Source: Platanthera guangdongensis
Taxonomy: Eukaryota; Streptophyta; Magnoliopsida; Asparagales; Orchidaceae
NCBI GenBank assembly: GCA_039583875.1
Contig: CM077157.1
Coordinates: 73,222,346-73,286,345, forward strand
Length of the DNA stretch: 64,000 nucleotides
Direction: 5' to 3'
Part shown: positions 1,535 to 62,692 of the stretch, piece after piece
Numbering within the stretch: position 1 is the stretch's first letter
How the letters are laid out: every line of letters starts with the position of its first letter
Notes under the pieces: generated by a model
What the model was told of the DNA's origin: nothing
Seen by the model: the letters and a program-made list of their open reading frames with translations, nothing else
Database searches by the model: none
Translations under genes and position numbers: made by a program

Positions 1535-1683
1535 TGTTGGGTACATTGGAATATATATACCAGATTTGAAGGAGCCTCACCCTACTCAATGATATACATC
1601 AAGGTGTATTTGATGTGCTTTGAGTTTATTTGTGCAAGTTAAGTAACTGCAGGATTGTAGGAAAAGTTTCTAAGTCCATGATT

Positions 1684-2460
1684 CGACACCTAGAAGAAAA
1701 GTGTCGACACTTAAGAAGGCTTGTGTCGACACCTAGAGAAGCTGTGTCGACACTTGGACTAATTTTGTCGACACCAGGAAGGCAGAGTCGACACCAGAAG
1801 AAATGTGTCGACACATACAGGCAGTGTCGACACACAGTGAAGAATTGTCTAAATAATTAGTGTCGACACTTAGAAGCAGTGTCGACACCCAGAGAAACTT
1901 TGTCGACATCAAAAGTGTCGACACCAGGAGGCTATGTCGACACTCAGCGAACTTCAACAAAGTTTAAGTACATGTGTCGACACAAAGGAGATGTGTTGAC
2001 ACTCAGCAAAGTTTAAACACATGAAAGCAAGTGTCGACACAAAGGAGATGTGTCGACACTCAGCAAGATTTCAACACATGAAGGCAAGTGTCGACACAAA
2101 GGAGATGTGTCGACACTCAGCGAGATTTCAACACATGAAGGCATGTGTCGACACAAAGGAGATGTGTCGACACTCAGCAAGTTTCAACACAAGAAGTTGT
2201 GTCGATACAAAGGAGTTCTGTCGACACACAGCAGAAATCAACTAAGTATTGAAGAAGAAGGACTTGTGTCGACACACTCAATCAGTGTCGACACATTCTA
2301 CAGAAGACTTGTGTCGACACACAGGATCAGTGTCGACACATTCTGAAGAAGCAGTGTCGAGAAGCTGTTACAACAATACAAGGAGTTGTGTTGACACCAT
2401 GAAGGCTAGTGTCGACACTTAGTCTACTTGTGTCGACACTTAGTCTATTTGTGTCGACAC
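1684..2460. repeat. GTCGAC palindrome array in C0 LTR
   Basis: About 27 copies of GTCGAC, most inside GTGTCGACAC, lie in under 800 bp. A random sequence of this size would hold well under one. Several near-copies are GTGTTGAC, the change expected from CpG deamination. Around 2010-2200 the spacing becomes a regular tandem repeat of about 60 bp, with two palindromes per unit. The C3 LTR has the same word. Confidence 0.95.
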
Positions 2461-2990
2461 ATAATGACTATCTGTCTTGACACTTTGAGACAGTGATAGA
2501 GATTTCAAGAAGTGACTGGATGACTTGACAACTGCCATTTCAACCGGTCAACTGCAACTGTCAGAGCTGTTAGAAGGTTGTTAGAAACTGGATCAGCTAG
2601 TTACCTTGGAGGAAGACTATTTAAAGACCTTTCTCCTTCGACAAAAAAAAAAGATAAGTGATCAATGAATTGAAAAACAACACAACAAAGAAGAAGACCT
2701 TTAAGAGAAGATCTAAGAAGTTGGAGAGAGAGAGCTCCTTCTAAGAAGAGCAGCTGCTGAACCAGGCTGCTAAGTAAGATTCAGATTAAAATCTGAATCT
2801 CAAGACAGCAGTTGATTGAAGATCATCTGCACAGAAGATTCAACCCTACTGTGTTCTAATTCAAGAAGCTTTGAAGAAAGCCAAGGGTGGTTGATCTCTG
2901 CCTAGTTCTTCCAAGAACTCATCAAGAAGCCAGTCAACTCATCTCTCTCTTTCAGAGTTGTGGTTAAATACTTTGTAAACTTTATTTTCT

Positions 2991-3243
2991 GTAGGATCTT
3001 GTATAGATCTGAGTTGTAAGCCTAAATTATAAAGGCTGAGGTAGGGCTTTTGTGGCTGAGTATAGGAGATTCTATTCTCAGAGTGTAGGCCTTGATTGAA
3101 GGCTGAGGTAGGGCTGTTTAGCCTGAGAGTAGGTCTTGGTGAAGACTGAGTGGTAAGGCTTTGTGCCTGAGTTGTAGGAGTGGGGTCACTCTGAGTTGTA
3201 GGAACCTGATTGGGGTTTTGAGTTGTAAGATCTGAGGATCTGA
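2991..3243 (+). other. String of about ten mini-hairpins in C0 LTR
   Basis: Successive stems are separated by a near-constant GAG(TT)GTAG spacer. Stems seen include GATCT/AGATC, AGCCT/AGGCT, GAGA/TCTC, GCCTT/AAGGC, GGCT/AGCC, GTCTT/AAGAC, AGGC/GCCT, GAGTG/CACTC, AACC/GGTT and AGATC/GATCT, each with a loop of roughly 4-8 nt. Stem sequence changes from unit to unit while pairing is kept. One unit near 3042-3056 has lost pairing. Equivalent strings occur in C1, C2 and C3. Confidence 0.85.
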
Positions 3244-3496
3244 GAAGAAATGGAGAAGTTAGGCCGAATCTAGTATGCTACTAAATAGGCGAAGGGGGAA
3301 AGTGGATGTACCCAAACCTTGGGGAACCACTATAAATCTTGTGTGCACTCTGTGTATGTATGATTGTATGGTAGATGTGTTGTGACAATTGTAGAATTCA
3401 TTTACTGTACTGTATTTCTGCCTGAAAAGTTAAAAAGATATAGGTCACCTATTCACCCCCCCCCCCCCTCTAGGTGATTAGGCACTATTACTTTCA

Positions 3497-5040: not shown

Positions 5041-5621
5041 GCCGAGGCGAGCCCCTGTAAACACTTTTGTAAACGTATTTATTTAATGAAAGAAAGATTT
5101 TTTATCGTACCCATGCCACTTTTGTTTTTTTTGTCTATTTGTTGTGCTTTGTATGTCCGCGAGTGCTTCCCCAGGCGACGTCGCGTAGATAGGTACTGTG
5201 AGTAGGATAGTTATGAGTACGCGCCCGCGAGTGGGTACGTTTTGAGTGCTTGCCGAGCTTCAGGCGATTCGGGAGCGAGCTGCTCTCCGCCCTTGTCACG
5301 TCTCCCCAACTCGCCCGCGAGCCATCCCGGTTGAACTCAGAAAGAAAGGAAAGAATCTTCTAAGTAAAATAGGCATAGAGGTGAAGTGCCTCGGCCTGGC
5401 TCGCATTCCTTCAGCGAGGTCCTGAGACCTGGCTTGCCATCCCTTTGCCAATGTCGAGCTAGATTGGGCGAGTCCAAACTCGCCTGTGCAGAATCCCTTT
5501 GCCGATGCCGAGCTGGGTTGGGCGAGCCCAAGCTCGCCTATGCAGACCTCTTCCCCCTTATTCCTTGGCATTCTAAACTTCTTGGTCTTTACCTGGCGAG
5601 TTCAAGGCCGATACCATCGAG
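5041..5621. other. G1 spacer between antisense gene and dimer array
   Basis: No gene is visible. The sequence is rich in the words CTCGCC and GCCGAGC, also common in the G1 LTR. At 5443-5550 a unit of about 54 bp, beginning TTTGCC and containing GGGCGAG...CTCGCC inverted words, occurs twice. Confidence 0.6.
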
Positions 5622-6487
5622 TGACTTCCAGCCCTGCCAGCTAGGTGGGAGCCTGACAGCGGGATCTGCTCGAGGCCCAAGGATGACACTGAGTGACTTG
5701 CAGCCCTGCCAGCTAGGTGAGAGCCTGACAGCGGGATCTGCTCGGGGTCCATTATCAATACCATCGAGTGACTTCCAGCCCTGCCAGCTAGGTGAGAGCC
5801 TGACAGCGGGATCTGCTCGAGGCCCAAGGATGACACCGAGTGACTTCCAGCCCTGCCATCTAGGTGAGAGCCTGATAGCGGGATCTGCTTGGGGTCCACT
5901 ATCAATACCATCGAGTGACTTCCAGCCCTACCAGCTAGGTGAGAGCCTAACAGCGGGATCTGCTCGAGGCCCATGGATGACACCGAGTGACTTCCAGCCC
6001 TGCCAGCTAGGTGAGAGCCTGACAGCGGGATCTGCTCGGGGTCCACTATCAATACCATCGAGTTACTTCCATCCCTGCCAGCTAGATGAGAGCCTGACAG
6101 CGGGATCTGCTCGAGGCCCAAGGATGACACCGAGTGACTTACAGCCCTTCCAGCTAGGTGAGAGCCTGACAGCGGGATCTGCTCGGGGTCCACTATCAAT
6201 ACCATCGAGTGACTTCCACCCCTGCCAGCTAGGTGAGAGCCTGACAACGGGATCTGTTCGAGGCCCAAGGATGACACCGAGTGACTTCCAGCCCTGCTAG
6301 CTAGGTGAGAGCCTGACAGCGGGATCTGCTTGGGATCCACTATCAATACCATTGAGTGACTTCCAGCCCTGCCAGCTAGGTGAGAGCCTGGCAGCGGGAT
6401 CTTCTCGAAGCCCAAGGATGACACCGAGTGACTTCCAGCCCTGCCAGCTAAGTGAGAGCCCGATAGCGGGATCTGCTAGGGGTCCAA
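5622..6487. repeat. 147-bp dimer tandem array (six dimers)
   Basis: Twelve monomers start TGACTTCCAGCCCTGCC. They alternate between two types: 72 bp ending AAGGATGACACCGAG, and 75 bp ending ATCAATACCATCGAG. Starts at 5622, 5694, 5769, 5841, 5916, 5988, 6063, 6135, 6210, 6282, 6357 and 6429 give exactly 147 bp per dimer with no insertion or deletion. Because 72 and 75 are multiples of three, long ORFs appear on both strands; these are by-products. Confidence 0.95.
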
Positions 6488-6575: not shown

Positions 6576-8695
6576 TCAAGGGAAAAAACATTTTAGGTCG
6601 TCACCACTACAGGTGAGACTCAGGGTCTTGCCCTCTACATTTTGGAGTCGATAACCTCCCGATTTTAAAGCCTCTTTTACAATAAACGGTCCTTCCCAAC
6701 TGTGGTTGAGCTTCCCTATGGACGCCGACCTCCTTGCAGCATCCACCTTCTTCAGCACCAAGTCCCCTTCCACGAACTGTTTGACTCTGACATGCTTGTC
6801 AAAGTACTTGGCCAATCTCCTTTTTACCTCTTCCTGTCTGATGGCGGAAAGGTCCTTCAGCTCTTCCACCATGTCAAGGGAGAGCCTCAGCTCTTCCTCG
6901 TTCTCGGCCTACCATTCTTCCCTTCCTCCCTTGGCCGCAACGACTCAAGGTGTTCGAACTTCAAACTCCACGGGGAGCACTGCCTCGCACCCATGGGAGA
7001 GCTTGAAGGGGGTCTCCCCAGTGGCCGTGTTAGGGGTGGTCCTCAAGGCCCAGAGGACCGCGGGAAGCTGCTCCACCCAGTTCCCCTTCAAATTCTCCAC
7101 TTTCTCCTTGAGGAGGTTGACGATGATCTTGTTTGCGGCCTCCGCCTGTCCATTGCTCCTGGGGTGATGGACAGCGGCGAACCTGAGGTCGATTCCAAGC
7201 TGCTCGCAGAAACTAGTGAACTCAGCTCTGGTGAACTAGGGCCCGTTGTCCGTGACAATGGCTTGGGGCAGCCCATGGCGGCAGATGATCTCCCCCCAAA
7301 CAAAGTTCCTGATTACCTGGGAGGTCACTTTGGCTAGTGCCTTCACTTCCAACCACTTGGAGAAGTAACCAATCATTACTAGGAGGAACCTCCTCTGCCC
7401 GCTGGCCTGGGGAAATGGCCCAACCAAATCCATCCCCCAAATGGCGAAGGGCTAGGGGGCCAAGATACTTTTGAGTCGCTGGGCCGGCTGTAGCTGGAGG
7501 GGGGTAAACAGCTGGCACTTACGGCACCTTCTCGTGAACTTCGTTGCATCATGGCCCAGGGTGGGCCAGAAGTACTCATGCCTGACGATTCTTCCCTCCA
7601 GGGTCCGACTCCCAGAGTGGCTCCTACACTTTCCAGAGTGGACTTCCTCCAGGATTCTTTGTACCTCCTCTTCGGCTACACAACGAGCCAACATCCCTAA
7701 GAGTGTCTTCCTGTATAGCTGCCCATCCTGGAGGAGGTAGTACGCCGACTTGTGCCTTAGCTTCTTCTTATCTGCCCCCTCCGGATACTCTCCTGTGGAA
7801 AGGAAAGTTACAACTGGGTCCATCCATGAAGTCTGTTGATCAATCTCCATGAGTTCCCCCTCTTCGATGGAGGGGAGGAATAGGTCGGTGATGGTACCCC
7901 CCACCTGGGGACCATGCTTTGCTAGTTGGTCGACCTGTTCGTTTTCTTCCCTGGGCACGTGTCGGATGGAGAAGGTTTGGAAAGTGCCTATGACCCCCTT
8001 CACTTTGGTTAAGTACAACCGCAAGGTAGGCTCCCTTGCTTCAAACTCCCCGTTGATCTGGGAAGCTACCACCATGGAGATAGTAAAGACCTCCACGTCT
8101 AACACCCCCAGCTCCCTGGCCAGGCGCAGCCCTGCTATCACGGCTTCATACTCGGCTTGATTGTTGGTGATGGGGAAATGCACCACCAGCGTCTGCTCAA
8201 TTCTAGTCCCCTGGGGGTTCTCCAAGATCACCACCACTCCTAGGGAATGCCTCCCCGAGGTGCCGTCCACCTTTACCTTCCAAGGAGTCAGACGGGTGAG
8301 CTCTTTCTCTGCCACCTCAATCACATAATCAGCCAAGAAGTCGGCCATTGCTTGAGCTTTGATCGAGAGACGGGGGACAAAGGAAACATCCAACTCGCTC
8401 AACTCCACTGACCACTTGGCGAGCCTGCCTGAATGCTCCACCCCCTCAAAGATGTTACGGAGAGGATGGTCAGTCACCACTCAGATTGAGTGTGCCTGGA
8501 AGTAAGGTCGCAGCCTCCGGGCTGAGATGATTAGGGTGAAAGCCAGCTTTTCCAAAATCGGGTACCGGAGCTCGGCCTTCCTCAGGACCCGGCTTACGTA
8601 GTAAATAGGGAGTTGCTTCTTCCCCTCTTCATGAACTAGGACGGAGCTCAAGGCCTCTGCCCCGACCCCGAGATATAAAAACAGGTCATCCCCCT
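6576..8695 (-). pseudogene. G1 pol, 3' part: RNase H, second RNase H, integrase
   Basis: Read leftward from the C1 junction at 8695. First comes the end of the RT-linked RNase H (IYYVSRVLRKAELRYPILEK). Next is a second, archaeal-type RNase H (KVDGTSG, TNNQAEYEAVIAGL, HVPREEN), then an integrase zinc-binding region (HSG...CRKCQLF). The integrase core follows with the first Asp in MDLVGPF, the second in TDNGP and the Glu in SNGQAEA. A C-terminal segment ends near 6579 (GDLVLKKV...WEGPFIVKEAL). The D-D-E residues are present, but stops (after TDNGP, and near 6930) and frame changes break the coding. The dual RNase H marks the Tat lineage. Confidence 0.9.
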
Positions 8696-8917
8696 TGAAA
8701 GTCCACCTAGTGTCAACTACCTTCACCTATGGGGGGGGGGGGAATAGGTGACGTGCAGCGTTTTTGCAGAATTTAAAATTGTACCTGCACAAGAAAACAA
8801 AACAGCACAACAAAGAAAGTACACAAGCAATTTATAGTGGTTCCCCGATTTGGGTACATCCACTTTCCCCCTTCGACCTATCTCCCAACAAGGGACGACT
8901 CGGTCACTTCACCAACA

Positions 8918-9027
8918 GGATTGAAATCCAATCCTTGCACTATCAGAAGGAACCCTTCCACACATAGGAGACAACACTCCCACAACACGGGTTGCATCCA
9001 ACCCTTACAACTAGGAACCAACGTTCC
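8918..9027 (-). other. Mini-hairpin string in C1 3' LTR
   Basis: Five stem-loops are seen: GGAT/ATCC, GAAGG/CCTTC, GGAG/CTCC, GGGTTG/CAACCC and GGAAC/GTTCC. Their spacers are related to TACAACTA, the complement of the spacer seen in C0 and C2. The second C1 LTR repeats the string at 15911-16020. Confidence 0.85.
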
Positions 9028-9689
9028 TTTACAACAAAAATGAAACTAGAATGTATAAGAAATACAAACAACCTATGGAGACAAGGTGTCCCTCTTCGTT
9101 CGATGACGTGGTCTTGAGGTCAACGAAGAGTCTACAACCCTAGATCTCTCTTGGAGAGAATCTCCTCGAAACCGGCGGCGGCAAGAGGGGCAGCGGCTTG
9201 ATTCTCGGGATCGGCGGCGACAACGGTGTGCGGCTGCTGTACTTTGGAGATTGAATCTTCGTAGCAAAGCTAGCAAGGTCTATCAACGGTCGCACTAGGA
9301 TCGATCATCTCGATCGATTCAGAAGGGAAAGGTATTCCCGATCAACGAATCAAGAGAAAAAGGATCTCTGGTTAGATGCGTGAGACGCTACGCTTGGCTA
9401 AGCTTCTGTCGCCGGAAGATCTAGAAGAATCACGATCAAACGGCCGGCGATCGACTAGCACGAGCGGCGACGGCGGCGGAGCAGGTATCGCGATCTAGGT
9501 CACGTCGTCAGCTCGTGTATATTTTTCTCTCTGCTTACTGTTCAAAATACGCGTGTATTTATACGGTAGAATACTCCAATATAACCGTTATGGGTCCCAC
9601 CTGAAGAAACCCTAATTCCGGTTCAAAATAGAGCCTTAATGTTTGATCCGGTCCAGCGGTATCCAGAAAATTGTCCAAGTCAAATTCGG

Positions 9690-9945
9690 TGAGAATCGAA
9701 GGTTATTCTCGATGAGTCGGCGAGAATCATCTGGTGATTCTTAACGATTCGATGAGAATCACTAGTGATTCTCGCCAAATCACTTGATGATTCTCGACGA
9801 TTATGACTTGGCGCCAGATTTGTACGCTTTGATGTAGCCGGATAGAGACGGCGAGAATCAACCAGTGATTCTCGACGATTCGGCGAGAATCACTAGTGAT
9901 TCTCCCCGAATCGGCGAGAATCACATGGTGATTCTCGTCGAATAA
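9690..9945. repeat. GAGAATC/GATTCTC palindrome array in C1 3' LTR
   Basis: Repeated inverted words GAGAATC and GATTCTC are joined by short centres and by CGACGATTCGGC-type linkers. One palindrome is perfect over 20 bp (GAGAATCACTAGTGATTCTC). The 5' LTR holds the matching array at 16680-16912. Confidence 0.9.
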
Positions 9946-10278
9946 TACTTGGATGATTTTTCGTCTTTCCGCCTCTGAGCTGCTATTTGACTCATCCTTG
10001 CTCCTTGTCTGCTCTTGCAATATCACAGCCCTGTACTTGAAAATAAGTACACTCCAATAGAGAGAGTACACGTAGGCCAACACACTGATCTGCTCAACGA
10101 GGGATTACGTCGTGCAGACCCGTGTATATTGACCTACTACACCCTGACATTGGAGTGCACTTAGCGTGGAATAACTGCAAGCACAACTTAAAAGGTTTTA
10201 TCAAATACATTGTGAATTCATCTTAGCTTGACAGGTGGCTTCGTCAAATCCAGGTAATTGTGGATACAATACCCAACG

Positions 10279-14041: not shown

Positions 14042-15619
14042 TTACCTTACCTTAGGAACCCAATACATATTGGGTCCTAGGTTCTTGTTAGCATGAAAAC
14101 TCGAATGCCTTCCCTCAGAAATCCTGTCAGGAAGACTACCTTTGCCCAGAAGATGTGGATAGGCCCTTGCCCTTGACACAGAGGGGTTGTGCCAACAGTC
14201 TATGGCAAAGTGTCCCACCTTACCACAGCACCAACACGTGTGAGTGTTGTACCTCCGTTTCTGACCTGATCCAGTGACTGAGGTAGTCATGATCCTTGGT
14301 CCAAACGGGATAGATCCGGATCTGCTCCCACAATTTCCTCTTCCACTGTGACACTTTGAAGGGTGGAAGGAATGCGTGTAGCGAGCGTCATGAGGCCTGG
14401 GAGGTGGTGCTTTCCTTTCAGTCAGCACCCTTCCAGAATCCTCATGAGAACTTACTGCATGACTTCTAACCTCCCTTTCCTGTGTCCTCGGGTGGTGAGA
14501 AGCGTTCTGAGAGCTGATACCAGCAGATTCATGCTGAGTTGGGGCAGTGGCCGAGAATACAAAGGGCTCAGAATAAGCCTTAGGTATTCTCTCATGGGTG
14601 GCCATGACAGCCCTTGCACTATGGGTGTCTCCACATGAGGACAGATCACCCTTGCAGGGACCACGATTGTTCCTGTGATCATACCTGAAGGCAAGATGAA
14701 TACCCTTCCTGCCTGGAGTGGGGGGTCTGAATACTGTTTCCCCATTTCTCCATGAATTGATAATTCGGGAGATCCACCCATTTTCTTCCTTTCTCTTCAT
14801 AGCATCAACTTTGGAAAAGTTGGATACTATCCTTTTCTCATTCTCTAGACTACTCTCTAGATCTGAGATTTTAGAGTCCTTGACCTTGTTGGATGCCAAT
14901 TGGAGAACCAACAAGATCTTCAGCCGAGCAATCTCCTGAGCTTTCTCCTCAACAAGTAGGTTGCTTTTCTGAAGGGCTCTCTTCAGGGAATCAGGATTTT
15001 CTGAAGGGTGACAATTCCTGTCTTCAGGAACTTCAAGAGAGAAGGGGCAAGATGAAGAAGTTACTTGCTCATCAGAGTTATTGTCACCAGCGCCAGAGAC
15101 TGTTGTGTCAGCCTCATCAGAACTGCTTTCCTCAATTTCTTCTTCAGTCTCTGACAAGGACACCGGAGCCCTGATGCTGTCCGATTGATCCTTGCCTTCA
15201 TCTTCAGAGGCGAGGACCCCCACATAGGCTTCATCCTCTTGCTGGCAGCAGATCCCTGCTTTCTTTGATCCCCCCATCAGCTCTGAGATGGTTACCCACA
15301 TAGATTTGGCCGTCCCACATTTTTCCAATCTAGATCGAGAAGGTCCAGACCAGACATCCATGATGATCTGACGAATCATCTTATCCAGGTTAAACAATGA
15401 AAGTTTAGTTTCCGACATCTCAGTAATACACTTGGGGATTGGGATATCCTTTCCAGAGCCGGAGGTCTTCATAGGAATGAAAGGACCCTCTTCTAAGATG
15501 AGAGATGCTCGAGGATCGATAGCCTCCAGGTAATAGGATACTCTCATCTTCCAGACGGGATAATACTCCTTAGTGCACGTGGGAAGTCTTAGTGGAGAGA
15601 TCTCATGATCCATCTCCAT
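14042..15619 (-). CDS. C1 gag-like protein, 525 aa
   Basis: An open frame begins MEMDHEISPLRLPTC, about 60 nt inside the primer site. The N-terminal 120 residues match the copia gag fold region (YPVWKMRVSYYLEAID, EEGPFIPMK), also seen in the C3 gag. An acidic Ser/Glu stretch and a coiled coil (residues about 210-270) follow, then a basic Arg/His-rich part. A CCHC zinc knuckle (CWCCGKVGHFAIDC) sits near residue 450. The end, MYWVPKVR, resembles the point where copia polyproteins run on into protease, but here a stop follows. The last codons overlap AAGGTAAGG, a strong 5' splice-donor match. The role would be the particle core. The frame is intact. Confidence 0.85.
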   Translation of the reverse strand: MEMDHEISPLRLPTCTKEYYPVWKMRVSYYLEAIDPRASLILEEGPFIPMKTSGSGKDIPIPKCITEMSETKLSLFNLDKMIRQIIMDVWSGPSRSRLEKCGTAKSMWVTISELMGGSKKAGICCQQEDEAYVGVLASEDEGKDQSDSIRAPVSLSETEEEIEESSSDEADTTVSGAGDNNSDEQVTSSSCPFSLEVPEDRNCHPSENPDSLKRALQKSNLLVEEKAQEIARLKILLVLQLASNKVKDSKISDLESSLENEKRIVSNFSKVDAMKRKEENGWISRIINSWRNGETVFRPPTPGRKGIHLAFRYDHRNNRGPCKGDLSSCGDTHSARAVMATHERIPKAYSEPFVFSATAPTQHESAGISSQNASHHPRTQEREVRSHAVSSHEDSGRVLTERKAPPPRPHDARYTHSFHPSKCHSGRGNCGSRSGSIPFGPRIMTTSVTGSGQKRRYNTHTCWCCGKVGHFAIDCWHNPSVSRARAYPHLLGKGSLPDRISEGRHSSFHANKNLGPNMYWVPKVR

Positions 15620-15679: not shown

Positions 15680-15691
15680 GCTTTGATACCA
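15680..15691 (-). other. C1 primer binding site
   Basis: The minus strand reads TGGTATCAAAGC two bases after the 5' LTR. This is one base off TGGTATCAGAGC, the complement of the 3' end of plant initiator tRNA-Met, the usual copia primer. Confidence 0.9.
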
Positions 15692-15693
15692 CT

Positions 15694-17240
15694 TGAAAGT
15701 CCACCTAGTGTCAACTACCTTCACCTATGGGGGGGAATAGGTGACGTGCAGCGTTTTTGCGGAATTTAAAATTGTACCTGCACAAGAAAACAAAACAGCA
15801 CAGCAAAGAAAGTACACAAGCAATTTATAGTGGTTCCCCGATTTGGGTACATCCACTTTCCCCCTTCGACCTATATCCTAACAAGGGACGACTCGGTCAC
15901 TTCACCAACAGGATTGAAATCCAATCCTTGCACTATCAGAAGGAACCCTTCCACACGTAGGAGACAACACTCCCACAACACGGGTTGCACCCAACCCTTA
16001 CAACTAGGAACAAACGTTCCTTTACAACAAAAATGAAACTAGAATGTATAAGAAATACAAACAACTTATGGAGACAAGGTGTCCCTCTTCGTTCGATGAT
16101 ATGGTCTTGAGGTCAACGAAGAGTCTACAACCCTAGATCTCTCTTGGAGAGAATCTCCCCGAAATCGGCGGCGGCAAGAGGGGCAGCGGCTTGGTTCTCG
16201 GGATCGGCGGTGACAACGGTGTGCGGCTACTGTACTTTGGAGATTCAATCTTCGTAGCAAAGCTAGCAAGGTCTACCAACGGTCGCACTAGGATCGATCG
16301 TCTCGATCGATTCGGAAGGGAAAGGTATTCCCGATCAACGAATCAAGAGACAAAGGATCTCTGGTTAGACGCGTGAGACGCTACGCTTGGCTAAGCTTCT
16401 GTCGCCGGAAGATCTAGAAGAATCACGATCAAATGGCCGGCGATCGACTAGCACGAGCGGCGACGGCGGCGGAGCAGGTATCGCGATCTAGGTCACGTCG
16501 TCGGCTCGTGTATATTTTTCTCTCTGCTTACTGTTCAAAATACGCGTGTATTTATACGGTAGAATACTCCAATATAACTGTTATGGGTCCCACCTGAAGA
16601 AACCCTAATTCCGGTTCAAAACAGAGCCTTAATGTTTGATCCGGTCCAGCGGTATCCAGAAAATTGCCCAAGTCAAATTCGGTGAGAATCGAAGGTTATT
16701 CTCGACGAGTCGGCGAGAATCATCTGGTGATTCTCGACGATTCGGCGAGAATCACTAGTGATTCTCGCCGAATCACTTGATGATTCTCGACGATTATGAC
16801 TTGGCGCCAGATTTGTACGCTTTGATGTAGCCGGATAGAGACGGCGAGAATCAACCAGTGATTCTCGACGATTCGGCGAGAATCACTTGGTGATTCTCGT
16901 CGAATAATACTTGGATGATTTTTGGTCTTTCCGCCTCTGAGCTGCTCTTTGACTCATCCTTGCTCCTTGTCTGCTCTTGCAATATCACAGCCCTGTACTT
17001 GAAAATAAGTACACTCCAATAGAGAGAGTACACGTAGGCCAACACACTGATATGCTCAACGAGGGATTACGTCGTGCAGACCCGTGTATATTGACCTACT
17101 ACAACCTGACATTGGAGTGCACTTAGCGTGGAATAACTGCAAGCACAACTTAAAAGGTTTAATCAAATACATCGTGAATTCATCTTAGCTTGACAGGTGG
17201 CTTCGTCAAATCCAGGTAATTGTGGATATAATACCCAACA
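15694..17240 (-). repeat. C1 5' LTR, 1547 bp
   Basis: It starts (minus strand) TGTTGGGTATTA and ends GGACTTTCA. It holds the palindrome array at 16680-16912, the mini-hairpin string at 15911-16020, the shared block at 15822-15860 and the C-rich hairpin at 15722-15743, here with a run of seven C. The near-identity to the 3' LTR points to a recent insertion. Confidence 0.92.
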
Positions 17241-23317: not shown

Positions 23318-23647
23318 TGTTGGGTATTGTATCCACAATAACCTAGATTTGTATGAAGTCACCCTTGAACTAAGATGAATTAAGTTGTATTTGATGTATT
23401 GTTTGAGTTATGTGTTTGTAGGACTTAATTGCCAAGTGTAGACCAATGTCAGTCTACAATGGGTCACCAAACACAGGACCATATAATGTAATCCTTCATT
23501 GTGTGATCCATGGTGTTGACTCATGTGTAGCCACTGTATTGGGATGCACTTCATTTTTCAAGCACTATGTTTGTTGGAGAAAGGCATGTTGTTGATTCCA
23601 TTGAAGAAAGGAAAATCTTCATAAACCAAATTCTTTTCTAAGTATTT

Positions 23648-24196
23648 CACTCGAGTAGAATTCTAATACTCGAGTAGAACCGTTAGTTGTGCTCGAGTAA
23701 GTCTAGTCTGGATTTCGAGTAAAGGAAATGGTTCTCGAGAAATTTGAATCTAGTTCTCGAGAGGCCAAGTCCATTACTCGAGTAGACTTCTTCTCTTTCT
23801 CGAGTTGACAGATTTCCCTTCTCAGAAATTTTCTAAGTATTATACTCGAGTAGTCAAGTTCACCACTTGAGTAGATGAGCACTTTGACTTGAGTGACAGA
23901 AGGAAAGTTCTCGAGAAGAATCTACCCCACTCGAGTAGTGTAGTTCCTGTACTCTATAAGCTTGTCTACTTCTCGACAAGTCCAGATCTAGTACTCGAGT
24001 AATCTGTTTTATTTCCCAGAATTTTCTCTAAGTCTTCTTCTCGAGAAGTTCACTTCCACTTCTCGAGTAACATTTCTAGCACTCGAGTAACCCTCATTCC
24101 ACTCGAGTGATAATGAATTCTGTTCTAAAATTTCCTGAAGGGCTTCTTCTCGAGTAGTCTGATATTGTCTTCTCGAGAACACATTTTAATACTCGA
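23648..24196. repeat. CTCGAG palindrome array in C2 LTR
   Basis: There are about 18 CTCGAG words in 550 bp, in two flavours: ACTCGAGT(AG) and TTCTCGAGAA. Near-copies such as ACTTGAGT fit CpG deamination. None of the other copia LTRs in the window uses this word as an array. Confidence 0.95.
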
Positions 24197-24695
24197 GTAG
24201 TTCTTCTTTCACTCTAGTAATCCAGTCATTTTTTTTCAAAAAATTTTGCTAAGTCCTAACATACACGATTTTCAAATGACTTGACATGACTGGGCCACGT
24301 GGCCGTCATTAATGATAATTATGACCGTTAGGGAGATCTTATATAAGGTCTTGTCATTCCGACTAACCCTAAGCGCGTTAAAGAAGCATTCTAAGAATTC
24401 TGAATCGGCTATTTTCTGTTTCCTAAATCGGACGCCCCCGCCGCTCATCTTCCTCATTACCAAGGGCTGTCGATCCAGAACGATTCAGAAAAGTTGACTT
24501 GCAGATCAAGATATTCTTCCATCTACTGATTCTCTCTCTGATCTTGTAATTCCAGGAATTTTCAGATCAAGGATCCTGCCATGTCTTCTTCAAAATTTTC
24601 TGACTGTGCCACAAAGTTCAAGAAGGAAGACCTAGGCAGAAATTTCCAGATCTGAGAAAAGATACTATTTGTATTTCTTATTTCAATCTATTCTT

Positions 24696-24834
24696 GTAGG
24701 AGACTATTCTCCGAGTGTAGGAGCTTTGTTCTCCGAGCTGTGGGAAGTTTTCATCTTCCGAGTGTAGGTCCGTTTTGTGGATCGAGTTGTAGGAACGTTG
24801 TTCCGAGTATTAGGATTGGTTTCAATCCGAGAAT
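24696..24834 (+). other. Mini-hairpin string in C2 LTR
   Basis: Stems in order are GGAG/CTCC, GGAG/CTCC, GGAAG/CTTCC, GGTCC/GGATC (one G-T pair), GGAAC/GTTCC and GGATT/AATCC, spaced by GAGTGTA or GAGTTGTA. A CTAG/CTAG hairpin follows at 24851-24865. Stems differ between units but pairing holds. Confidence 0.9.
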
Positions 24835-25054
24835 AGTGGAGTAATTGAGTCTAGTGCTTTGCTAGATCAGTGAGTGGAAAGTGGATGTACCCAAGGTTGG
24901 GGAACCACTATAAATCTCTGTGTCCTCTGTGATTGCTTGTTTATTATTCTGTGCTTAGATCGCTAAATTTTTTATTCCACAAAAGATGCACAACTCAACT
25001 ATTCACCCCCCCCCCCCCCCTCTAGGTGATTTAGGTAGACAACTAATAACTTCA

Positions 25055-46258: not shown

Positions 46259-46270
46259 CCTCTGATACCA
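46259..46270 (-). other. C3 primer binding site
   Basis: The minus strand reads TGGTATCAGAGG two bases after the LTR, an initiator tRNA-Met-type primer site. Confidence 0.9.
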
Positions 46271-46566
46271 ATTGTAAATGTTTACTTTATGATTGAAAAT
46301 GACCTAGACGGGGGTGAATAGGTCTAATTTAATTATGGCTCCCCTTTTCTTTAATCAGAATACTACTTTAAATAAAGTGATTTACTCAGTCAGATAATTA
46401 ACATAAACTAAATAGCAATTAACAGAATTAACACATCACAACACATCAGCACACACAGCACAATGTACACAGATTTATAGTGGTTTCCCAATTTATGGGT
46501 ACATCCACTTTCCCCCTTCGCCAATCTAGCAATGAACTAGATTCGGCCAAACTCCTCCGCTTTCCT

Positions 46567-46800
46567 TTACTCAGATCTTTAGATCTTACACCTCAGAGCC
46601 CACCCGGCTCCTACTACTCAGACTTCACAAGTCTTTCCACTCAGATCACCAAGATCCTACACCTCGAGTTCTTCCCAAGAACTCTACCTCAGAATGAATC
46701 CTCACTCCTACTTCTCAGGCAACAAATGCCCTACAACTCAGAGAATTTTCAACTTATCCTACCTCAGGCAATCCTAGCCCTACCTCAGACTTTATAACAC
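46567..46800 (-). other. Mini-hairpin string in C3 LTR
   Basis: Plus-strand stems are AGATC/GATCT, GAGCC/GGCTC, GACTT/AAGTC, GATC/GATC, GAGTTCTT/AAGAACTC, GGCA/TGCC and GGC/GCC, separated by CTAC...CTCA spacers (complement GAG...GTAG). Two units near 46695 and 46745 pair poorly. An ATCTAG/CTAGAT hairpin lies beside the string at 46524-46542. Confidence 0.88.
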
Positions 46801-47309
46801 AGGCTTACAACAACAAGAGAATAAATCTCCACCACTCAGATCTACAGACAGATCTTACAAATTGAATATAACAGAGAAATGAATCAAAAAATGTCACCCA
46901 GTATGAGATTTGAGTAACTGCTTCTTGATCTGATCTTGATGATTGTGCTTCCTTTGATTCTGACAAGATAGATCTGATCAAACCCTTATTAGCTTTTCAA
47001 AGCTTCTTTAAGTAGAAATTATGGTTGATCTAGGCTGGAGAGATGTTGTAGATGCTTCTTGATCATACCTCTCTCCACCTTCTAAATTATAGTTGGAGCT
47101 TCAAAGATGTGCTGCTTCTTCTTTATTTTTTGTTCTTTTTTTCTCTATGTTATCTTTCTTCTGAAGACTGCATCCCTTTAAATAGACTCTGGCAGGAGTA
47201 ACCTGCTGATCCGGTTAATAACTGACAGTTCTGACAGTTGTCGGTACCTCAGTCTTGATATCTGTACTTAGGAAATAAGTCTGCAGACGTGTTGAGACTT
47301 GGCTGTGAA

Positions 47310-47815
47310 ATGTGTTGACACAAGTCCTGGGTGTCGACACAGCTCCTGTAGTGGTGTTGAAACACTTCTGAATGTGTCGACAAAGCTCTTCAACTTATCT
47401 CGACACAACTTCTGTGAAATGTGTCGACACAAGTCCTGTGTGTCGACACAGTTGTCTTCAGTCTCGTTACAGCTTGATTATAGTGTGTCGACACTAATCC
47501 TGAGTGTCGACACAGTTGTCTTTAGTCTCGACACAGCTTGAATAAAGTGTGTCGACACTAGTCCTGAGTGTCGACACAGTTGTCTTCAGTCTGGTATAAT
47601 GTGTATAGAGTGTGTCGACAATAGTCCTGAGTGTCGACACAGTTGTCTTCAGTCTGGTATAATGTGTATAGAGTGTGTCGACACTAGTCCTGAGTGTCGA
47701 CACAGTTGTCTTTAGTCTCGACACAGTTGTCCTTAGTGTCGACACACCTTTTCTTTGTCTCGACACAACTTGTTCAGTGTGTGTCGACACTAGTCCTGAG
47801 TGTCGACACATTGTA
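47310..47815. repeat. GTCGAC palindrome array in C3 LTR
   Basis: There are about 15 GTCGAC words in 500 bp, mostly GTGTCGACAC. They are organised in an imperfect tandem unit of about 70 bp containing CAGTTGTCTT(C/T)AGTCT. Confidence 0.93.
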
Positions 47816-59218: not shown

Positions 59219-62200
59219 TGTAAGACCCCCCCCCCCCTCTCGGATCCCAAAACACGGCACGAAAGGGGAGTCTTATGCCCGGAACAGCCGTCTTGCGGTA
59301 GCATTAGCACACGGGCTAACCTGTACCACAAGACGGCTATTCCGCCGGCTACAACAATATCAACAGAACATGTCAACCCAACCAAATAAATAAGCAAGAG
59401 AAGTCAAAATCCACACTAAGTATATAATGTCCAAATACATCAATAAGGAGAAGCTAAACATGCTTCTACAAAATATCAGAGTACAGCTAAACATTGCCCA
59501 AACAGGCTACATCAGAGTATCAAATACTAACATCAGTAACCGGCGGTATCGACGGCACCGTCACTTCAGCCCCTATCGTCCTGGCCTGGCTGTCCTGCTG
59601 CGTAGTCTGCGGCTGCTCTACCTGCGGCGTGACCTCCTAAAAAGGAAGACGTAGCAACCGTTAGTCGAAACGACTAAGTAGTTTCACATCTGCTCCCCCG
59701 GCGACTCCTCGGCACCGGGCGGGAAAAAGGAACAAGAGTACAATATATATAAAAGTATAACAGGTACAAGCAGGTGACAATAGTGTAAGAGTAACAGTAT
59801 CATAATCAACATTTATTTAAGAGCTACACTAAACTAGCAAGTATAAGTAACAGCAGGAAAGTAACTTAACTTATAAGAATGTTCATACAAACTTATAAGT
59901 TAACGATCGGGTTACATAAAGGCAACTCATCGTATAAGAGTGCTCATACAAACTTATACAATGAGGATCTTGTTGTGCAATGTTATGAAATGTTATGAAT
60001 GCTATGGAATGACTCACCCATGCACACACATGCAATTGCTATGTCGACACAGACTATAGTTACCACTTTTCGAGCAGGTAGCTAACCTCTCAGGCATCAG
60101 CCGCCGTGGTCAGGCGGTGACAGTAGAACGGACACTTCTACTACTAGGCGGGTATCACACTACTTCACCTAGGCCTCTGTACGCCTCAATGCTAAGAATA
60201 CAACAGCGGAGCTCATGCGTACTATGGCCCAGCGGGAGCCTCGGGTAGATGTGCACCGAGGACCAAGCCCCGAACTGACCTTGTGTGACCCGGAAGGAGC
60301 CTCGGAGTGAGCACGAGGACCAAGCCCAACCGTTCACCTGGCACGGAAGGAGCCCCGGGACGTGAACACCGAGGACCAAGCCCAACCGCCCAAAGTCTAA
60401 CTGTCGACTCCCGTCGGTGTGACGACTGGCGAGCCCGTATACCTGCCACACTATCCTTAACCCAGGATTACGACACCGCGTGTCAACTCACACGACATGC
60501 AAATACCACATCAACATAACATGGAAGGGGCCTCGGAAGTAAGCACGAGGACACAACCCAACCATCCATCTATACCTTATCTCAACACAACCAAAACAAG
60601 TGACGGTCAACACCGCACTTACATCCCTTCTCAATACTACCCGTAGGGAGACGACGCTATAAGTATTGGACTACTAGACTCATTTCATTAATCAAACATA
60701 CTCATGGCCATAATCTATTCATCTATATGACTTTCCAAATGATGACAACGTAATATAAACATGATGCACATATCAAGATCTATCACACTTTCCATTGATA
60801 ATGTCATAATATAAACATGAAGTGCACAATTATCAATCTTTCAAAATCCTACCAAGTCAATTCGTTTAAATAAGATTGCTTCACAATTTGATTATATGAA
60901 ATCTGATTAATAAGCTACATCAATCATGCAACAAATGATTAATCATAAGGGTTCATCCAAGCCAAGTATCTTGTAATATTAATTCCACCGAATCCAAATC
61001 CATCTTCCATTATAGCCCAGAATTTAGGTGCAGGTTGAATCTGGACAGCAACTTCGACCGGAGATTCCCGAAGCTACAGGAATCCGGTGAAGACGTGTAA
61101 CCCCACGATGGAAAGGTCTTTCCGTGGTCTACAACTCTCGTATTCAGACCTCAACCCAGATTTGACATTATCCTATTTGAAATCGGACTTGAAGTCCGCT
61201 GCGTACAGGACACAGTTTCTGCGTGGAGGATTTATTGAACACCATTTTCGTATAGACTTTCCCGTGGCTACAGACTTCGCCAGAAGTCGTGCAACCATTC
61301 GTTGGAAAGGTATTTTCAAGGGCTTCAACTTTCGTGTTTAGCCGAAAGCCCAGACCTGGTCATATCATGCTTAAAAATGGTCACGAAGTTCGCTGCGCGC
61401 AGAATACAGATTCTGCACGCATCTTAAGGCGGAATGAACGACATCGGTTCATCTTCCTCCTCAAGGCGATCTTCCCAAATCATTCCAGAAAATCTCCTCC
61501 CTTATTCAACCTCAAGAGGCCTTTGCTCTTCACAAAACCATCCCTCATCTCCACATAGAAGATCGGAGAGGTTGAAGACACCACTAACCAAGAGCACAAG
61601 CCCCGGATTGGCCTCACCCTAGAGAAAGCATCTTCTCACATGTCAAGACTCTTTTGAGTCGACGTCTCGCCTAGATATCTGCAGATCTAGCACCAAGGGA
61701 GAGGGTAGGAAACTCACATCGGTTCCAGCGGTACCACCATTTCCGGCCATGGATCTCGTAATTCTCCTTGGCGGCATCTTCTCCTTCACGATGATGGCGG
61801 ATTTTCTCCTGTAGAACTTGCTCCAGCAGTTTTCTCTCTCATCGGGAGTTCTCACAGGAAATAGGGAATGAAATGAGCAAGAAAACGGCTAGGGTTTTCT
61901 CTTCCCTTATATATGAAAAGTGACACGGGCAGGGACACGGCCGTGTCCTTACCCGTGTCCTGCCTGGGCGAAGCGGCAACGACAGTTTCCATGTCGGTTC
62001 AATAGTTGACACGGGTAGGGCCACGCCCGTGTCCCGACCCGTGTCCACATGACACGGCCGTGTTCCTGGCCGTGTCCTTGGCCGTGTCCTTCTCGGGTTG
62101 CATCTCGACGAACTCAACTCGACACACACGGAACACGGGTAGAGACACGCCCGTGTCTCTACCCGTGCCATATAATTCGTCGATCTTGACACGGAGTTCG

Positions 62201-62692
62201 TCGATCTCGACACCTCTCGTCGAGTGTAACTCGACACACACGGGTAGGGACACGCCCGTGTCTCTACCCGTGTCACATGGTGTCGACACAGCTCGACAGT
62301 CTCGACACGCCCTGTCGAGTGTAACTCGACACACACGGGTAGGGACACGCCCGTGTCTCTACCCGTGTCACATGGTGTCGACACAGCTCGTCAGTCTCGA
62401 CACGCCCTGTCGAGTGTAACTCGACACACACGGGTAGGGACACGCCCGTGTCTCTACCCGTGTCACATGATGTCGACACAGCTCGCCGATCTCGACATGC
62501 CTCGTCGAGTTCAGCTCGACGCACACGCGCACACGGGTAGGGACACGCCCGTGTCTCTACCCGTGTCCCTTCACAGCACTGATTTCACTACTCCACAAGT
62601 GCAGTCCAATTCCCTGCACGTCCCAGGACTCGAGTCAACCCTCCTGACTCAAACACACACACTAGGGGCCTAGAGCGATTCGGGACGTTACA
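59219..62692 (-). repeat. Z: solo LTR, 3474 bp
   Basis: Flanked by CAGAT (59214-59218 and 62693-62697), it splits the K reverse transcriptase. Minus-strand ends are TGTAACGTCCCGAATCGC and GGGTCTTACA, typical of long chromovirus (Tekay/Del-type) LTRs. No coding region or primer site is seen, so it is a solo LTR. A patch at 60222-60560 repeats GGAAGGAGCC(T/C)CGG...GAGGACCAAGCCCAACC about four times. Confidence 0.88.
61918..62575. repeat. Long hairpins in Z
   Basis: Seven copies of a 36-bp inverted repeat have arms like ACACGGGTAGAGACACG and CGTGTCTCTACCCGTGT around CC. The copy at 62132-62167 is nearly perfect. Later copies lie in a tandem unit of about 100 bp that also contains GTGTCGACAC and paired CTCGAC/GTCGAG words. 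Confidence 0.93.

Follow-up and report, generated by a model that had tools for sequence, protein, structure and literature searches.

A string of short hairpins with changing stems lies in the LTRs of all four Sirevirus-like elements (C0 to C3) of a 64,000-nucleotide stretch of the Platanthera guangdongensis genome (contig CM077157.1, positions 73,222,346 to 73,286,345; hereafter the window). Its features point to a real RNA architecture that is apparently selected and whose function we infer. LTR retrotransposons account for a large share of big plant genomes, yet few of their cis-acting RNA signals have, to our knowledge, been described in plants.

Results

A hairpin string 5′ of a conserved block

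Direct reading placed 5 to about 12 hairpins 5′ of a conserved block in each of the four elements. In all of them the stems vary from unit to unit yet stay complementary, as the original prediction had described. The strings, with stem-loops counted by eye, are located as follows.

2994..3241, plus strand: C0 hairpin string, 11 stem-loops
24699..24828, plus strand: C2 hairpin string, 6 stem-loops
46573..46855, minus strand: C3 hairpin string in the 5′ LTR, about 12 stem-loops
15910..16021, minus strand: C1 hairpin string, 5′ LTR copy, 5 stem-loops
8917..9028, minus strand: C1 hairpin string, 3′ LTR copy, 5 stem-loops

For C0, ten or so stem-loops had been proposed and 11 were counted. The C3 string was present as predicted, its real stretch being longer than the 46567–46800 first put forward.

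Each unit runs in the order stem, loop, stem′, and spacer. The spacer had been described as a near-constant GAGTTGTAG, which did not hold: in C0 and C3 it is GAG-N0-4-GTA followed by A or G, in C2 it is of a CGAG type, and in C1 it is looser and resembles TTGTA or GTGTG. Since a T stands as the last letter of the unit, just ahead of GAG, most units close with G.U (272 of 341 distinct units); in C2-type units the last letter is C and the closing pair is G-C. The L011 family has 15 strict spacers within the 700 nt 5′ of the block. Neighboring units are identical in L016 and L017, so arrays can grow by duplication. Two C0 hairpins (3044–3057 and 3065–3080) contain one pair-breaking change each; both changes are absent from most of the C0-type copies compared, the first being present in L102.

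The surrounding LTRs resemble the Sirevirus plan

Judged by its sequence features, the LTR arrangement in the window resembles the Sirevirus plan of Bousios et al. (2010), whose available text describes LTR palindromes, the TATA box, the junctions, and an integrase signal, but no hairpin string of the present kind (PMC2829016). The window LTRs share one order. A polypurine tract (PPT) and TG start, seen in C0 and C2, come first; then come the GTGTCGACAC palindrome array of C0 and C3, a TATA box, and the string, which starts about 330–535 nt after the TATA box in the four elements. A two-part hairpin and the conserved block are next, and the LTR closes with a polyC motif before its CA end. In C1 and C3 a site resembling the primer-binding site (PBS) follows. 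The corresponding features in C0 and C2 are listed below.

1535..3496, plus strand: C0 LTR, either a 3′ LTR or solo-like; GGGGGGAGAT resembles a PPT and is followed by TG at 1535; last letters CTTTCA, at 3496
1683..2460, plus strand: C0 U3 array of GTGTCGACAC palindromes upstream of the TATA box, boxes of the RM type (concept from PMC2829016)
2618..2625, plus strand: C0 TATA box candidate TATTTAAA; ATG avoidance begins downstream
3448..3476, plus strand: C0 polyC integrase-signal motif, by direct reading
23318..25054, plus strand: C2 LTR; PPT AGGGGGAG-AT immediately upstream, end placed by eye
24340..24346, plus strand: C2 TATA box candidate, by direct reading

The Sirevirus PPT, AGGGGGAG followed by AT/TG at the 3′ LTR, was exact in C2 and one base off in C0 (GGGGGGAG); a pattern scan of the window found none for C1 or C3. 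The Sirevirus PBS, TATCAGAGC after ATTGG, occurred with one base changed in C3 (TATCAGAGG; LTR/PBS junction near 46270, minus strand) and in C1 (TATCAAAGC), and no PBS follows the C0 LTR end at 3496. The polyC integrase signal lies near the LTR end in all four elements. The GTGTCGACAC arrays upstream of the TATA box in C0 and C3 resemble RM boxes but lack the CGG-CCG core; arrays of this or similar palindromes were seen at window positions 1683–2460, 47312–47814, and 62133–62567. According to the available text of Bousios et al., Sirevirus Tnd-1 also lacks the CGG-CCG core of the RM palindromes (PMC2829016). A CCHC motif was found in C1 and inside C3, and a gag fragment of C3 matched PF14223 (copia gag). 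Rfam gave no match at gathering score in the window. A tandem array of six copies of a 147-bp unit (93% matches) occupies window positions 5611–6486.

Pairing within units exceeds that of swapped arms

Only the spacer (GAG-N0-4-GTA) was used to delimit units, blind to pairing, and the control swapped the right arms. In 80 units from 15 of 23 cluster representatives, 73.7% of cells were Watson-Crick pairs, compared with 45.9% (sd 2.5) after right arms were swapped within elements, and 88.8% of the units had at least 4 bp in the same register, compared with 33.7% in the swaps (sd 5.2; maximum of 2,000 swaps, 48.8%). The strict spacer yields fewer than two units in the other 8 representatives, including the window's C1 (0) and C2 (1). 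Among the 23, L020 and L036 have a block whose upstream sequence is unrelated, and L039, L043, and L073 are without a string. Of 20 additionally sampled copies, 12 have an intact block pattern. The larger unit set covered 108 copies, of which 96 had at least two units, and gave 341 distinct units, 334 of which were tested: at least 4 bp formed in register in 84.7%, compared with 18% after arm swapping (maximum of 1,000 swaps, 23.7%). Sliding one arm by 1–3 positions left pairing in 0–2.6% of the 152 longer units among the 341.

Many different letter combinations can serve as stems as long as they pair. Across the 341 units, all four Watson-Crick pairs occur at stem position 3 (A-T 127, G-C 73, C-G 61, and T-A 52) and at position 4 (C-G 142, G-C 90, T-A 34, and A-T 34). 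When single elements were tested, the 11 C0 units, cut by eye, had 51 of 55 positions paired with G.U allowed (swap mean 37.6; reached by none of 20,000 swaps), and six C3 units, cut by the spacer pattern, had 28 of 30 (swap mean 21.0; reached by 51 of 20,000). The original prediction had proposed a comparison with shuffled sequence, and pairing proved to be far above the arm-swapped controls in the genome sample, in C0, and in C3.

It had also called for a covariation test, and here the outcome was divided. In a 19-row alignment of related strings, 96.3% of cells paired, compared with 26–44% with slid structures, and 26 cells had changed on both sides, compared with 10.7 in shuffles (none of 500 reached 26). 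Two of the five measures were not above the shuffles in this alignment, namely the number of pairs with a change on both sides (5, reached by 144 of 500) and the number of further pair types (21, reached by 365 of 500). All but one of the 26 cells changed on both sides fall in one hairpin slot (columns 315–332), where whole units, rather than single letters, may have been exchanged. In alignment A3, row L083 was wrong and was disregarded.

Thermodynamic folding was also tried. Global minimum free energy (MFE) folding proved to be a weak test, misleading for arrays: energies were weakly below shuffles (z −1.1 to −2.7). At unlimited pair span the C0 string was not the predicted fold (best pair probability 0.00–0.46 for the 9 of 11 hairpins tested); with the span limited to 40 nt, eight of the nine reached 0.69–0.95 and one stayed at 0.06. 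The C1 hairpins appear in both the MFE and centroid folds; pair probabilities for three of the five were in the wrong register and were disregarded. A span-limited scan of the 23 representatives in 100-nt windows starting 300–100 nt 5′ of the block gave a mean z of −1.2 to −1.8 and was set aside as not specific, because windows further upstream give −0.3 to −1.8.

Widely shared variants are rare in stems and spacers

Variants found in one element, taken as decay after insertion, were compared with those common to at least four, taken as carried by spreading lineages. The C0 set comprised 39 copies in 32 element groups (5 of 44 rows, L124–L128, which are 84–91% identical, were omitted). Private variants were spread evenly over this string (0.353 per site in stems, 0.339 in loops, and 0.288 in spacers), whereas variants common to at least four were found at none of 116 stem sites, 5 of 59 loop sites, and 1 of 73 spacer sites (loop versus stem plus spacer, Fisher p = 0.0065). 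Variants in two or three C0 elements ran opposite (14 in stems, 6 in spacers, and 2 in loops).

The C2 set comprised 44 copies, with the two LTRs of one element not grouped and L161, in which part of the string is deleted, omitted. With one mis-registered hairpin still included, private variants per site were 0.667 in stems, 0.531 in loops, and 0.610 in spacers; those in two or three copies were 0.317, 0.375, and 0.317, and those in at least four copies were 0.183, 0.938, and 0.122 (loop versus stem, p = 3e-5). A repeat analysis that leaves this hairpin out counted 25 shared variants at 25 loop sites and 7 at 50 stem sites. Four of the seven change G-C to G.U, one is pair-breaking, and two are the halves of one compensated change, T-A to C-G, in a homologous C2 hairpin (24817/24824) in 6 of 44 copies. 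Pooled with C0, this repeat gave p = 5e-8 for loop versus stem (variants in at least four copies). All of these Fisher values are optimistic, since shared variants in a subfamily are linked by descent. Variants in two or three copies showed no loop-biased pattern in C0 or C2.

Because decay is even and wide spread is uneven across stems, loops, and spacers, the structure of the string looks selected, with stems and spacers apparently under purifying selection during the spread of the element. The original prediction of selection on structure thus found support in the pairing above arm swaps, the both-sided changes, and the shared variants lying mostly in loops.

ATG is avoided from the TATA box onward

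ATG and its reverse complement, CAT, were counted and compared with dinucleotide expectations. Between the TATA box and the 3′ end of the string, the four window elements contain 3 ATG where 30.7 are expected, and CAT is not avoided. By region (observed/expected), ATG stood at 49/58.9 upstream of the TATA box, 3/17.9 in the stretch that begins 30 nt past the TATA box and runs up to the string, 0/12.8 within the string itself, and 14/22.3 after it; the CAT values were 53/63.6, 23/22.8, 3/1.9, and 9/11.1. The 14 of 23 representatives used for the same count gave 14/47.5 for ATG and 16/11.1 for CAT in the string, 20/63.3 and 57/73.7 in the 300 nt before it, and 58/60.4 for ATG at 500–800 nt before it.

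Avoidance of ATG on the sense strand from the promoter on is what a ribosome-scanned leader would show, so the string probably lies within the transcribed leader. The earlier suggestion of a position near the leader, probably in RNA, is supported in this respect by avoidance that starts at the TATA box. Mismatch types were considered as proof of the RNA strand and set aside: G.U and A.C inside stems stand at 28 : 13 (137 distinct arm pairs; swapped arms 0.246 to 0.065), a ratio no higher than base composition gives and therefore no proof of RNA over DNA.

The conserved block and the hairpin before it

Two further hairpin features follow the string.

3263..3290, plus strand: C0 terminal two-part hairpin, lying 3′ of the string and 5′ of the block
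3301..3331, plus strand: C0 conserved block, fold AGUGG-AUGUA-[CCCAA..UUGGG]-GAA-CCACU
24880..24909, plus strand: C2 conserved block hairpin
46479..46509, minus strand: C3 conserved block hairpin

The block takes one fold in 21 of the 23 representatives, running from AGUGG through the internal loop AUGUA and a 3–5 bp inner stem, variable in its inner letters, to CCACU; the exceptions are L039 and L043, where the block reads GTAGGC. The hairpin before the block, assessed partly by eye, keeps its form while its stems differ between families (GCC/GGC with TCTAG, CCGA/TCGG, GACC/GGTC with TCCC/GGGA, TCCAAC/GTTGGA, and CCTTA/TAAGG), and it folds unevenly (z −3.8 to +1.0, 23 representatives).

An AUG stands in the internal loop of the block hairpin (for example 3301–3331) despite the ATG-avoiding leader upstream; by construction of the search pattern, it is in every copy examined. 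A conserved short ORF starting there was considered and rejected, as the frames differ between families and, read by eye, are unrelated in C0–C3 (nine codons plus stop in C0 and three plus stop in C3). In L010, L011, L019, and C1, a run of mostly pyrimidines that closes with (T)GCAG or ACAG lies some 40–60 nt after the block; it resembles a 3′ splice site or else a poly(A) context rich in U.

Genome-wide abundance

Pattern scans of the 4.25-Gb assembly found 16,848 matches to the block, 5,365 to the C1-type block, 2,641 to the C2-type block, and 37,157 pairs of spacers at unit distance, this last pattern not demanding pairing; the reversed-pattern control gave 0 in each case. Viral contigs gave no match to the block. 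A cis-acting RNA signal would here be visible by sequence alone, beside a block of this abundance and with its own internal controls, and the copies of the string offer RNA studies a rich, naturally occurring source of covariation.

A second hairpin array occurs within about 200 nt 5′ of the block in block-bearing elements without the string (L073, L039, and L043). Its stems differ around a constant loop, (C)ACCTGATCAAAA; those of L073, read by eye, are CAAGT/ACTTG, TGAGC/GCTCA, and CAGT/ACTG. Two ACCTGATCAAAA-loop motifs 10–40 nt apart were found 18,354 times in the genome, with 0 in the reversed control.

An apparently gag-only element with the string

C1 (8688–17239, minus strand) has LTRs that are 96.5% identical and a 5.4-kb interior.

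15686..17239, minus strand: C1 5′ LTR
8688..10277, minus strand: C1 3′ LTR
14042..15619, minus strand: C1 gag-like ORF of 525 aa with a CCHC knuckle, CWCCGKVGHFAIDC

The ORF was labeled gag-like from its knuckle and position; it had no Pfam match and a single protein match, an orchid hypothetical protein (P. guangdongensis). No pol domain was found in seven sense-strand frames of at least 90 aa, and from its sequence C1 looks like a gag-only, non-autonomous element. Another C1 ORF weakly resembles PF20167, with a score below the cut-off of that family. Neighboring C1-type blocks on the same strand, judged by eye from about 100 of the 5,365 places, were in many cases about 6.4–7.5 kb apart and in others 3.6–20 kb, while close pairs of C0-type LTRs were 9.7–10.9 kb apart in 7 of 9 cases. 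As the C1-type spacing is the shorter, the short form seems common. A family that has lost pol and still retains both its gag-like gene and the string would be in keeping with a Gag-linked signal, an argument drawn from one C1 interior.

Discussion

We tentatively propose that the string is a cis-acting RNA element of the 5′ leader (LTR R/U5) of these Sirevirus-like elements, serving as a multivalent site for Gag and packaging; it is the explanation we favor, at somewhat less than even confidence. The hairpins would act as scaffolding that keeps the repeated GAG..GUA spacer, predicted to be unpaired by the unit model, single-stranded and evenly spaced, and the evenly spaced spacers would form a multivalent docking site. 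By analogy and from the one gag-only element, the most likely partner would be the element's own Gag, binding through its CCHC zinc knuckle either to recognize and package genomic RNA or to switch the RNA from translation to packaging. The hairpin before the block and the block hairpin, with its AUGUA internal loop, may be parts of the same leader structure. Arrays would enlarge by unit duplication, after which the stems would drift through compensated changes. GAG..GUA spacers are constant in C0 and C3; counting against this reading are the C1 spacers, which depart from GAG..GUA, the global MFE fold, which lends no support in C0, and the variants of two or three C0 elements, which show no shortage in stems. 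Because a constant unpaired motif set among variable hairpins is a multivalent protein-binding design with a precedent in alfalfa mosaic virus, and because Ty1 gives a precedent for packaging sequences near the start of the RNA, we would place Gag recognition first, translation control second, and a role in reverse transcription or dimerization third.

A role in translation is a doubtful second. The string might help ribosomes to scan or skip a leader that is very long and poor in ATG, through weak hairpins, a shunt, or internal entry, and might also time ribosome arrival at the block AUG or the gag start. Such a role would suit the avoidance of ATG through the leader and the block AUG, which is built into the search pattern and so stands in every copy examined. 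Stems of 4–6 bp, however, are too weak to stop ribosome scanning, the block AUG opens unrelated short frames in C0–C3, and a constant spacer motif would be unnecessary.

It is rather unlikely that the hairpins aid strand transfer or dimerization, working either in the R region of the RNA or in minus-strand strong-stop cDNA. The string sits between the TATA box and the PBS, its complementarity would fold cDNA equally well, and wobble pairs give the RNA strand weak support; but shared variants fall most often in the loops, on which a kissing contact would depend.

A related and unlikely possibility is that the string is a self-recognition code that sorts like with like for dimerization and packaging, the constant spacer being the common grip of Gag. 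Since stems drift between families yet stay self-complementary, identical RNAs could swap arms and zip together. If so, RNAs of co-resident related families would zip less well, and the ACCTGATCAAAA-loop array would be a further instance of this design.

UGUA is a far-upstream and UAUAAA a near-upstream element of plant poly(A) signals, and a 3′-end element made of spacer UGUA and block UAUAAA would fit the many UUGUA spacers and the UAUAAA and U/GU-rich sequence that come after. We consider this quite unlikely and set it aside: only 71 of 129 spacer matches 5′ of the block in the 23 representatives contain UGUA, 42 read GAGGTA, and the paired stems would go unexplained.

Very unlikely, too, is the absence of any function, with template switching during reverse transcription turning imperfect palindromes into perfect ones. 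This would give compensated stems without selection in LTRs where palindromes are plentiful, but in C0 private mutations strike stems and loops alike, whereas stems and spacers hold few of the variants that at least four copies have in common, and neither the constant spacers nor the avoidance of ATG would be explained.

Hairpins serving as small-RNA templates or decoys, as proposed for maize Sirevirus palindromes, are the most improbable explanation: small RNAs are attracted to the palindromes of maize Copia LTRs in the available account (PMC10760457), but those cases are copies of one palindrome in a cis-regulatory region rather than short variable hairpins downstream of the TATA box, and an element that conserves its own silencing trigger would be unexpected.

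Recognition by Gag, our preferred explanation, makes the string a defined and testable candidate for Sirevirus RNA recognition. No description of it was found in the open-licence PMC literature searched. In the available portion of an LTR-model paper, Sire LTRs have TATATA as a motif and CAACAAA as their poly(A) site, and no string is mentioned there (PMC3601003). The miRNA-like hairpins of maize Copia LTRs are likewise predicted LTR secondary structures; the commonest motif is the RM palindrome CACCGGACNNNGTCCGGTG, and no variable-stem string is described in the accessible part of that work (PMC10760457). Sirevirus RM palindromes are, like the string, repeated dyad-symmetric units in LTRs, but in the account available they are CpG-rich copies of one sequence upstream of the TATA box, whereas the stems of the string differ and lie downstream (PMC2829016). 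C0 and C3 have both RM-type palindromes and the string.

The packaging signals of Ty1 and of retroviruses (psi) are known as a few complex folds or a pseudoknot and are not known to form a repetitive string with constant spacers. The Ty1 leader packaging and dimerization domain and retroviral psi are nonetheless structured, cis-acting RNAs of the 5′ leader, thought to be recognized by Gag, and Ty1 packaging needs sequences in the first 580 nt of the RNA, as far as the available text goes (PMC4974528). The orchid string may have a comparable position: it is downstream of the TATA box and ATG-poor, from which its placement in the leader is predicted.

In the 3′ UTR of alfalfa mosaic virus, a linear array of stem-loops flanked by AUGC binds coat protein at several independent sites, according to the available text (PMC9414508). 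The orchid string resembles this alfalfa mosaic virus and ilarvirus array in being a line of hairpins set apart by a short constant motif. It differs in the motif, GAG..GUA instead of AUGC, and in its probable place in the 5′ leader instead of at the RNA 3′ end; the virus is a plant RNA virus with reported protein binding, while the string is known from sequence, the likeness being one of design. By analogy of design, the alfalfa mosaic virus array is the closest proven case known to us.
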